A DNA stretch of 64,000 bases, taken from Xylona heveae TC161. Lineage: Eukaryota; Ascomycota; Xylonomycetes; Xylonales; Xylonaceae. Each line of letters begins with the position of its first letter. The first letter of the stretch is position 1. The notes beneath the pieces were generated by a model. That model saw only the letters and a list, made by a program, of their open reading frames with translations, did not search any database and was not told where the DNA came from. Below, piece by piece: positions 26,290 to 30,795 of this stretch. Where the stretch lies: contig NW_017264205.1 of the NCBI RefSeq assembly GCF_001619985.1, positions 558,001-622,000 of the forward strand, in the 5' to 3' direction. The position numbers were made by a program, and so were the translations under genes.

Positions 26290-27069
26290 ATGGAGTCCAT
26301 CAAGGCCATCTTCTGGAAGCCAGATCCCACGACTCAAGTGCGTACTCTTGCTGTGGACTTTTTCAACCTGAGTGCATCTGTAGATGTCACAGTGCTCTGA
26401 TTTGTTGTTAACAAGGTGATACTTATCTAGATGAGAAAATGTAACAACTTGATTCGCGCCAACACTCGAAAACTTGATCGTGACATTGCCAATCTCCGCC
26501 AAGTCGAGGCCAAAACCAAAAACCTCATTCTTCAAGCGTCACGGCGGGCTCAGCGCAATCCTTCCCAAGCCAAACAGGCGGCAAATGAGACACGGACATT
26601 TGCAAGAGAACTTGTTCGGGTGCGAAAGCAAAACAATAGATTGGCAACAAGTCGGGCGCAATTGCAGAGTGTGCAGATGCAGGTCAATGAGGCTTTTTCC
26701 GTGCGTAAGATTGAGGGTAGTATCAAGGCCTCAACGGGCATCATGAAGGATGTCAATAGTCTAGTGCGATTGCCGGAGCTTACAGGGACAATGAGGGAAC
26801 TCAGTCAAGAGTTGATGAAGGCTGGCATCATTGAAGAGATGGTAGGCGACACGCTACCTGATGACGAACTCCTCGAGGGCGAGGATGAGGAGGCCGAGAC
26901 CGAGGTTGATAAAGTACTTGGAGAGATACTACAGGGCAGACTGGGCAAGGCTGAACCTCGTAAGGAAGAGGAGAGACCGGCTCCAGAAGTGCCAGAAGAG
27001 GAGGAGGAGGAAGACCAGGAAGCCATGTTGGACCAAATGAGGGGCCGCCTTGAGGCATTGAAGAGCTAA
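26290..27069 (+). CDS. VPS24: ESCRT-III subunit Vps24 (CHMP3)
   Basis: Two exons (26290-26337, 26431-27069) give 228 residues, the normal size. The first exon encodes MESIKAIFWKPDPTTQ, and the second continues with the basic helix MRKCNNLIRANTRKLDRDI that packs into the ESCRT-III polymer. Helical, charged core segments follow (about 20-150). The tail is acidic (EEEEEEDQEA) and ends in DQMRGRLEALKS, a MIM1-type motif for binding the MIT domain of Vps4. It acts with Vps2, Vps20 and Snf7 on endosomes in multivesicular-body sorting. The ATG of the second exon could be mistaken for the start, but that would drop the conserved N-terminal segment. Confidence 0.96.
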
Positions 27070-27972
27070 TGTATTTCGTACATGCTCTTACATTACATTA
27101 AGATACCTCGCTGCAAGGAAGTTTTCTGTGCCATGTGGAGAAGGGAGAGAAGTTTTGCATCATCTTTTATGATACTTTTACAGGATTATGGCGTTGGAGT
27201 AGGGTGTATACCAGTACTTAGACTTTGAGCACAGTAATTTATCATAGCATGATCTTGTCATTCAACGGGTTTGATTTTCCAGCAACATGATGCATGCTTG
27301 CTCACACAATCTGACATGATCGTAGATATCTTTTCCGGTTCATTATTTAGTTGCTGTTATATTCAGAGCAAAGCTGGAGGGGTGAATGATACCAGATCTG
27401 GACTAGCGTGGAAACCTCCATGGGGCAGGTGGGCGTTGACTTTTGACTCCCTGACATCGTCCTCTCGTCTGCCGCCTTCACTTTCCATCTCCTCGTTGGT
27501 CCGATCTCAACATTTAAGTCGCGTCGGCCAAGCTTCACTGCTCTCCATTCATCTGCTCTACCTCTCCAATTCATCAGAAGCTCTGCTTCATTTGCCATCC
27601 ATCTCTATAGGGATTTCTGTCGCACTTTGCAAAGCGGTGTCTATTGTCACCGCGATCGCGTCGCTCGTTGCTTCAGCCTCAGTCGGTGCCTAAACAACCA
27701 GCCAACCGCGATCTTCAAAAACTCGACATTGCCATCCATCCATATCTCATTTAAAGTGCCATTTGGCATTTTCTTTTAACCGCTTCTTTCACTCGCTGAG
27801 CTGGAAGTGGAACTGTTTGACTTCTGCGTACCTTTGCGTCACGACTGTTGCTCATTTACCCGCTCGCATTCTCCTTCGTCAACTCTAGTCGTCTCAAACC
27901 AGGAGGCTATCGATTCGCCATCTCGATTAACTCTTTCCAAAACCTCTATTTTCCAGACTTTACTTAATCAAA
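27070..27972. promoter_or_regulatory. Intergenic DNA with CT-rich leader of MLO3/YRA1
   Basis: The VPS24 3' end is followed by a strongly pyrimidine-rich plus strand (about 27440-27970) up to the MLO3 ATG, as in leaders of highly expressed fungal genes. The open frames inside (27271-27693 and others) follow the CT bias and have no domain. Confidence 0.5.
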
Positions 27973-29982
27973 ATGTCGGACAAGCTTAGCAAGTCGCTCG
28001 ACGAGATTGCCAAGGAGCACCGTGTTGGCCGCGGTCGGGGTCGCAAGAATACTAAGCCTAAGGCTCCTGCTGGCGGTATTACCAAGAAGACAAAACAGGC
28101 AAAGGCTCCTGCTCCTGCTGCAGCGCCTGCTGTCCTTACTCCCGCTTCCGGGGAGAGCAAGATTGAGGTCAGCCAGCTGGTAAGTACCACTTCATACCTA
28201 TGTAGCTTTTGTCTCCTCTCTGTGATTTCTGACGTTTTCTCTAGCCCAAGGATGTCACCGAAGATCAAATTAAGGTATGTTGATCGATAGGCCACTTGGC
28301 CTTGGATTTTCATCGCCACTCTACTTTTCTGAACGCGCTCGGACCCCACGAATTTCGTCGATGAGCTTGCGAGAATCTTTATCTCCCTTGTTTGTGATGG
28401 GCTAGCCTCCTCGCGATAGCGCTTGCTCGCTTTCTAAAGGGAAGCTTGATGCAGAGAACGCAGCGAGTCGAGAAAAAGCTGCCCACGTCTTGCGAAGCCA
28501 AATCGTGCAATAAGAGTCGCCTGGCAAGCGCACCATGCCGATATTGGAGCAGACGACACGAGGATTACTCCGAGGAGATCCTCAAACATCACTTTCTGCG
28601 ATGATACCCCGTTTAAGTGCATCTTTACTTGGTCGAGTAAATCTGCTTTACATTTTGAGCCCCGAGCATCAGCGAGCAAGCAGTGCATGAGCAGTGCAGA
28701 ATTCTATGGATGAGGTCTCGTGAGGTCTCAAACTCCCAATCATGGGAATTCGTCCTTGGACGCAGCTTCGACGGTGATTCGTCCAAGAAGCTGTTATTTG
28801 GTTTCCTGGTCGGAACCGTGGATTCGGACGGGAATTTTCCGATCAGCAAGAACAACACACCTGGAAACATATGGCATAAGCATCTTGTACAGCGATCCAC
28901 CGCGGGCCTTTGATTCAAATGGAACACTCTTGTTGTGGTTTGACCGTCATTTCCCATCAGGTAATGGACTGCTTGGAATGGTTACTTAGGAGTGTTCTGA
29001 TGGGGACGAATGCTATCTCTGAGGCAAGACCCTTGGACTTGGTCGATCCGACTGGACAGGATTTGAGTCCTTTGGATCTTTTTTACACAATACTAACGTG
29101 CTGCCTGCTCGCTGATGCTGCTTCCTAACATGGGCTCAAAGTATAATTTCAACGAGGGATTCCATTAAGCTATTTCGTGTTTCCGGGATCGATAATATTC
29201 TTGCTTCCTTGGACGACTTCTCGAGTTTATTGAGCCTTTTTCACCTCTCAGCAGATATTGGACTAACGCGCGCCCCTCTTCGTTAAATTAGGAATACTTC
29301 GAGAAGACTATTGGTCCGGTCAAGAAGCGACCCATCATCAGCTATGGTCCAAATGGTATCAGCCGTGGTATCGCATCCATCACATTCAGCAACCCACGCC
29401 ACGCAAACACTGCTTTTGAGCGCCTAAACGGAATGCTCGTCGATGGAAAGCCCATGAAGGTTTGTGTCAAATTGCAATTTCCGCCACTGGATCGAGCTAA
29501 TAGACGTTTAGATAAGCATTATTGTCTCCCAGGCGCAAGCGCAAGCGGCCAAGTCCTTGAGCGACCGTGTAGCGTAAGTCTCTAAAAACCAATTGCCACT
29601 TTCTTTGCACTTGCTCATTCGTTTGTAGTCAGCCTAAGAACCAGCCTAAGGCTGCTGCTGCGGCTCCGAAGCAAGCTGCTGCTGGCGCTTCCGCGGCTCC
29701 CAAGGCTACCCGTGGCCGTGGCCGTGGCCGCCGAGGCCGTAACACCACTCGCCCCAAGCGCAAGACCGCCGAAGAGCTTGACGCCGAAATGGTTGACTAT
29801 TTCGGCAATGAAAACACTAATGGCGCCGCTGCTGGCACTGAAGCTGCTCCTGTTACCAACGGTGCTGCTCCAGCTCCAGCTCCCGCTGCTGCTGGTGGAG
29901 ACACTGGAATGGAAGACGAGATCATGGTATGATATATCTTCATCCGTTTCCTAGCCCTACAATGCTAACTAATCTGCAGTAA
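27973..29982 (+). CDS. mRNA export adaptor Mlo3/Yra1 (ALYREF family)
   Basis: Six coding exons (27973-28179, 28245-28274, 29292-29459, 29512-29573, 29629-29926, 29980-29982) give 255 residues. The N-terminal KLSKSLDEIAKEHR is a UAP56-binding motif, followed by an RG/Lys-rich stretch. The RRM runs from about 65 to 150, with RNP2-like KIEVSQL and RNP1-like GISRGIASITF, and introns cut it three times. A basic RGRGRGRRGRN stretch follows, then the second UAP56-binding motif KTAEELDAEMVDYF near the C-terminus, and a final MEDEIM. In the family this protein links the RNA helicase Sub2/UAP56 to the export receptor in the nucleus. The 10-codon second exon is followed by a 1,017-base intron, far longer than the others in this window. 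The last coding exon is only the stop codon. Confidence 0.93.
28275..29291 (+). promoter_or_regulatory. 1,017-base intron in the Yra1/Mlo3 homologue
   Basis: The donor is GTATGT and the acceptor follows TTAAATTAG. The intron lies inside the RRM coding region. Yeast YRA1 also has an unusually long intron used for autoregulation through poor splicing, so a similar role is an inference. Visible inside are a tandem TGAGGTCTC pair (28711-28729) and an 8-base inverted repeat CTTGGACG/CGTCCAAG (28755-28762 and 28780-28787). No C/D-box snoRNA pattern was found by eye and no credible nested gene. Confidence 0.7.
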
Positions 29983-30795
29983 ATGGTCTCATATTTCCAA
30001 ATTCCTCCAACGTGCGCACCCTTCTTACAGCGAGAGTCGGAATAAGCCATCCGCATTCGACTTCTCGCTCTTTGCTCTACTGTCCCAGAGACAGAAATGT
30101 GCATTTTGTATTATTAGTCTATTAAGAACTTGAGATTGCTGGTCTGAGACGTCTTCCTTTTGTTGAATTTTATTTTATTTTTCCTTTTGTTAATCGTCTC
30201 GAATGTTGGGACTTGGGACGGTAAAGGTCGGAAATGAAGATTGCGAAATACAGAAATCACTACATGAGAGATTGCGAAGAATTCAAACAATGCAATTTGC
30301 TAAATATATGACTGCGCACTGCTGCAGAGGGATGAACAATATCTGTCGGAGTATATGCTCCTTTTCCTTACCTGACTGTGATCGGTTGTCCCTTAGTCTC
30401 TGTAGACAGGAAATAATCTGCACAACACTATTGGGTCCAATTTATACGATATGTTATTCTGACATGTCGCGTAGCTTATGCCGTTTACTTCCCAGCGACT
30501 ACACCGATCCGAGTTATCGACATATCCAAGTCACTGAGCAGTACATTTTCCTTGGTAACACAGGACTCTGCCTTGCTTCTATGTACACAATGCCAGCCAA
30601 TCATCCCGGCGCGTCTGCACAGCCTGATTGAACGCCTTTGCATCAGCCTTGTCAAATTATACAGGTCTGGCTGCCCAACCAACATGCTCAGCTCAGCTCG
30701 CCGGCCTATATGAATCGTCTCACTTGTTCATGCTCATATTGCTGTATCTTCGTTGCTCATCTCTGTTTCATCCAAATCACCGTTCGATAGCAAAC
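29983..30795. other. Intergenic DNA with no supported gene
   Basis: It holds the MLO3 3' UTR and flank. A 142-codon frame at 30203-30631 has no domain, no helpful start context and a Cys/Tyr-rich composition that looks random. Confidence 0.45.

Follow-up and report, generated by a model that had tools for sequence, protein, structure and literature searches.

A long intron within the RRM of a Yra1-type gene of Xylona heveae, a possible counterpart of the YRA1 intron of S. cerevisiae

Long YRA1 introns in yeasts and the Xylona heveae gene

Budding yeast, whose lineage is poor in introns, is the best-known case of Yra1 autoregulation by means of a long intron. There, work of Preker and Guthrie in 2006 reportedly found that a shorter YRA1 intron splices better and that control is then lost, while unrelated filler sequence is said to restore it. 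The S. cerevisiae intron starts after coding nt 285, codon 95, and measures 766 nt (nt 286-1051, PMC2864733), compared with 1,017 nt for the Xylona heveae intron described here, and its predicted structure is conserved in the Saccharomycetaceae (PMC4937481). According to PMC2911113, all hemiascomycetes have a long intron in YRA1, its branch site diverges in almost all yeast species, and the 850 bp YRA1 intron of Yarrowia is NMD-sensitive. The same paper describes the S. cerevisiae Edc3 mechanism as probably not conserved in Yarrowia and a length bias as absent among the retained introns of that species (PMC2911113). In a Yarrowia upf1 mutant, intron retention is reported to be up 27-fold for YRA1 and 47-fold for SUB2 (PMC6351623). 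YRA1 intron retention also rises in upf1 mutants of Cryptococcus, in which, as the same report states, NMD-coupled retention is not predicted by intron size (PMC5006051). For filamentous ascomycetes, there was no report on YRA1 introns among the open-licence matches listed. If a filamentous fungus, richer in introns, has a long intron at the same site, the circuit would date from before these lineages separated.

We describe here a six-exon gene on the forward strand at positions 27973-29982 of the window, which is the whole stretch of 64,000 nt that was analysed (the source assembly has 17 contigs and 24.28 Mb). Its predicted product has 248 residues, with an RRM (Pfam RRM_1, residues 66-134) and a FoP-type C-terminus. 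The S. cerevisiae Yra1 sequence used in our alignments is assumed to be correct, with the intron boundary at VR|EFF. It has 226 residues, in agreement with the 678-nt coding length given in PMC2864733, and over its C-terminal 30 residues it matches 5sup_G (47 bits). Full-length alignment with this assumed sequence gives 37% identity overall and an N-box, a KSL.DR motif and a C-box LD.EM.DYF common to both proteins. The RRM scores 141 against Yra1, 97 against an Aly/REF-type paralogue of the same genome and 94 against ALYREF (four sequences compared, Yra1 as assumed), and a one-residue insert in the RRM is likewise common to the Yra1-type protein and Yra1. The initial annotation had named the gene a Yra1/Mlo3 homologue, and RRM scores, N-box, KSL.DR and C-box all agree with this; on these sequence features the gene is assigned as a Yra1/Mlo3-type export adaptor.

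Exon 1 (27973-28179) comprises 69 codons, including the N-box KSLDEI and the beginning of the RRM, and is followed by intron 1 of 65 nt (28180-28244) and by exon 2 (28245-28274) with the ten codons PKDVTEDQIK. Intron 2 (28275-29291) has 1,017 nt, is in phase 0 and lies within the RRM, as the initial annotation had claimed; the boundaries proved exact, with GT at 28275 and AG at 29290-29291, and splicing out intron 2 brings EDQIK|EYFEK together within the domain. The bulk of the RRM is encoded by exon 3 (29292-29459). For intron 3 (29460-29532) we set the acceptor by homology and preferred 29532, because the resulting KSLSDR matches KSLADR of Yra1. Exon 4 (29533-29573) is followed by intron 4 (29574-29628), whose acceptor was placed by eye with the frame kept, and exon 5 (29629-29926) encodes an RG-rich region and the C-box EELDAEMVDYF. 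Intron 5 (29927-29979, 53 nt) lies directly 5' of the stop codon TAA (29980-29982), which lies in the final exon.

Gene structures were also predicted with a home-made gene finder in three versions, the third of which penalises long introns steeply and was used for the survey described below. Versions 1 and 3 both call intron 2 base for base. For intron 3 the acceptor is set at 29532 by version 1 and at 29516 by version 3, and for intron 4 at 29644 and 29632, respectively; intron 2 is unaffected by this disagreement between homology and gene finder. Version 1 adds a spurious intron to the Yra1-type gene, and version 2 chains neighbours and misses the gene.

Position, phase and length of intron 2

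Intron 2 sits in phase 0 between K79 and E80 (IK|EYF), that is in the same alignment column and the same phase as the yeast YRA1 intron, as far as the assumed Yra1 sequence places it. The parallel position suggested in the initial annotation is thereby supported. A second instance of the site is found within the genome itself. With the human ALYREF RRM as query, the best of six matches was the Aly/REF-type paralogue (locus L040), whose RRM scores 132 against human ALYREF and 104 against Yra1. It carries a 99-nt intron at L040 1402-1500, in an RRM column and phase identical to those of intron 2 by eye reading, while the gene finder places the acceptor 11 nt further on. The paralogue thus shares the site with intron 2 and differs from the Yra1-type gene in its short intron and in an RRM nearer to human ALYREF. 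With column and phase shared by both genes, the site probably predates the split of Yra1-type and Aly/REF-type paralogues, judged from these alignments. The great length at this site is peculiar to the Yra1-type copy in Xylona heveae, and a long and a short intron at one site make a natural comparison of length effects. Yarrowia is reported to have a separate Aly/REF protein beside Yra1 as well (PMC6351623). Searches in collections of viral and prokaryote DNA yielded pattern matches and no relative, neither for the RRM exon (19 matches, viral contigs) nor for the whole Yra1-type protein (161 matches, genome contigs) nor for a part of Sub2 (11 matches, viral contigs).

To what extent intron 2 is unusual in length can be judged from two surveys. 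The 104 introns predicted in the window and in 23 RRM loci have a median of 64 nt, and intron 2 is the longest of them; just three (331, 514 and 1017 nt) reach at least 300 nt, in a set drawn by a predictor that is biased against long introns and that missed a 592-nt SUB2 intron. Intron 2 is thus about sixteen times as long as is usual in Xylona heveae. The second survey made use of exon gaps inside kinase domains. Of 229 kinase candidates 127 were scored, 68 rows were picked by eye from the 141 matches listed, and of the 37 neighbouring pairs obtained we kept 31, after dropping six in which the profile continued poorly (gaps of 46 to 227 nt after adjustment). In 27 of the 31 pairs the gap is at most 168 nt. 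The four longer ones (231, 237, 522 and 573 nt) are probably coding inserts, because the same open frame continues on both sides, and some of the 27 shorter gaps may be inserts too. A search for the MFS family gave ten matches, of which the split ones were too few for an intron-length background. Among these 104 predicted introns and 31 kinase gaps, 1,017 nt is a clear length outlier.

Two of the predicted introns are mentioned here as observations in their own right. The 331-nt intron (L007 1951-2281) is the predicted first intron of an RRM gene of SR type, similar to Tra2 as judged by eye, and Tra2-like SR genes are often self-regulated in animals. The 514-nt intron (L030 89-602) belongs to a gene in which two stretches resemble an RRM; it is predicted to follow a first exon that is very short, and may be a prediction error.

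The partner gene of YRA1 also carries a long intron. The SUB2/UAP56 orthologue was found on contig C9 (locus L035), in pieces 61-67% identical to human UAP56, and its first coding intron measures 592 nt (L035 1914-2505, reverse strand), with a stop within three codons. The donor of this intron, GTCAGT, falls by score in the lower quarter of the surveyed introns. Elsewhere in the 38 UAP56 match rows, intron-like gaps are about 40 to 110 nt by eye. Larger gaps occur on C5 (about 609 nt), C8 (about 389 nt) and C4 (about 513 nt, one open frame), and in each of these the protein is partly unmatched. At the sequence level, intron 2 and the SUB2 intron share a longest common word of 9 nt, within the 8 to 14 nt given by 40 random versions.

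Splice sites, internal sequence and rival explanations

Intron 2 has the donor GTATGT, the branch site GACTAAC at 29261-29267 (the branch A and the last base of the intron span 26 nt inclusive) and the acceptor TTAG. The yeast YRA1 branch heptamer is GACTAAC as well. Summed over the three sites, the score of intron 2 tops those of all 103 other predicted introns, a rank that is inflated, since the score tables are our own consensus and the predictor takes long introns only with strong sites. Taken singly, the donor beats 93 and the branch site 95 of the 103, while the acceptor beats only 45. Even allowing for the inflated rank, the splice sites are not weak. The branch site is normal for its genome, unlike the divergent branch sites described for yeast YRA1 introns (PMC2911113); the account of Yarrowia YRA1 gives a branch TGCTGAC that is three bases from the 3' site, again unlike Xylona heveae (PMC2911113). 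If intron 2 is retained, translation meets a stop two codons in, giving a product of 81 residues.

Good splice sites are what would be expected if the site is ancient and the length neutral, acquired by insertion or drift, with efficient splicing and no regulatory role. We regard this as a serious possibility, although not one that we would expect to prove right. The interior of the intron fits it well. Folding energy is unremarkable (z -1.34, a stability matched by 12 of 100 shuffles; z from -1.76 to 1.81 in 12 control stretches taken from the window), in contrast to the predicted structure conserved in the YRA1 intron of Saccharomycetaceae (PMC4937481). Rfam gives three matches in 27000-30300 at E values up to 10, all of them outside intron 2, and 966 of its 1,017 bases match only themselves genome-wide (simple and very common words skipped). 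In line with neutral length are also the reports that size does not predict retention in Yarrowia and Cryptococcus (PMC2911113, PMC5006051). Against it stand the long YRA1 introns stated for all hemiascomycetes (PMC2911113) and the long intron of the partner SUB2, since a gain of length by chance would be less likely to hit precisely this pair of genes; the predicted introns of 331 and 514 nt show that other long introns exist, which softens the coincidence.

The initial annotation had proposed a tandem TGAGGTCTC pair and an 8-base hairpin as candidate elements. Both exist: the pair lies at 28711-28719 and 28721-28729 (spacing 10), and an 8-bp hairpin, probably the one meant, is formed by 28755-28762 and 28780-28787. 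A further tandem pair, AGCAGTGCA, is found at 28679-28698 (spacing 11). Two such 9-mer pairs occurred in none of 1,000 shuffles of intron 2, but they are also present in five of 61 other 1,017-nt tiles of the window, some of them coding repeats, and are thus not rare in the 64,000-nt window. As many 8-base hairpins are held by 80 of 300 shuffles. The role of candidate elements therefore did not hold up, with the hairpin at chance and the 9-mer pairs not rare.

It is improbable, in our estimate, that a regulated alternative 3' splice site or a poison exon sets the level through unproductive splicing instead of retention. A possible site of this kind is seen at 29091-29141, where the first AG downstream of a perfect TACTAAC is at 29141 and an in-frame stop, by eye, lies beyond it. 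The branch neighbourhood ACTAACG[T/C]GC is present twice in intron 2, at 29092-29101 and 29262-29271, 170 nt apart, and such a duplication would suit an alternative site. The scores, however, argue against it: the acceptor at 29141 reaches 5.49 and the best internal acceptor 6.48 against a background median of 7.45, and the best internal donor 3.31 against 5.08. In 300 random sequences with the same dinucleotide composition, the score of the best internal acceptor is equalled or exceeded in 95% and that of the best internal donor in 90%, so that these sites are at chance. That intron 2 owes its length to a non-coding RNA encoded within it, for example a snoRNA, is very improbable, for although fungal introns can hold snoRNAs, none of the three matches to Rfam families falls within intron 2 and the overall fold is no better than that of shuffles.

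A possible role in Yra1 control

Tentatively, and with close to even confidence, we favour a reading in which intron 2 corresponds to the YRA1 intron of S. cerevisiae, old and long, with retention leading to decay and to a steady Yra1 level. The likenesses are an orthologous protein, the same column and phase, a length that is great for the genome and an early stop upon retention; a difference from S. cerevisiae YRA1 is that the Xylona heveae gene has four further short introns. The likeness to Yarrowia lipolytica lies in a long intron, intron 1 in that species, within the YRA1 gene; introns there are generally longer (median 204 bp). The long intron at the same site suggests that self-control of Yra1 by this means is old and shared.

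Such a circuit could work as follows. Its great length would slow the splicing of intron 2 relative to the roughly 60-nt introns of the genome, and part of the Yra1-type transcript would remain unspliced. The early stop would direct this transcript to decay, most likely by NMD as in Yarrowia and Cryptococcus and not by the Edc3 route of S. cerevisiae. In the Yarrowia work, the retained YRA1 form is likely to be removed by NMD, and the retained SUB2 intron is NMD-sensitive too. Since Yra1 acts in export, a surplus of it would increase the loss of its own pre-mRNA, and the protein level would stay steady. A brake based on length needs no conserved element, which fits intron 2 and is equally expected of a neutral intron. 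Autoregulation through intron 2 is plausible, with slow splicing, dose dependence and NMD each inferred. Of the autoregulatory intron that had been proposed initially, the yeast position and phase, the great length and the immediate stop upon retention are found, together with the short paralogue intron, whereas weak splice sites are not.

On sequence grounds intron 2 can be classed structurally with the long YRA1 introns. Orthology is indicated by the RRM score (141 versus 97 and 94), the one-residue insert and the motifs, all relative to the assumed Yra1 sequence; position and phase agree, again on that sequence; and the length is exceptional, the longest of 104 and judged also against the kinase gaps. 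As for the S. cerevisiae-type autoregulatory class, a premature stop upon retention is present, and the branch site is neither weak nor divergent, GACTAAC beating 95 of 103. We keep intron 2 out of this second class, because the branch site is not weak and the dose response is only inferred.

With SUB2 also carrying a long intron, one may ask whether control of this kind extends to the whole TREX pair, and SUB2 may be held likewise through its 592-nt intron. A wider claim, which we consider rather unlikely, would be that in filamentous ascomycetes the TREX pair of the adaptor Yra1 and the helicase Sub2 is matched in level by two long stop-bearing introns, in a circuit that predates the split of yeasts and filamentous fungi and that survived in YRA1 when S. 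cerevisiae, now poor in introns, lost most of them.

Two minor observations concern the surroundings of the gene. None of the candidates for a 5.8S rRNA gene scored in the assembly (39 of 799) passed the family cut-off, and the Xylona heveae assembly may lack the rDNA array. Upstream of the Yra1-type gene, the neighbour at 26290-27069 looks, by eye, like a Vps2/CHMP2 ESCRT-III gene.
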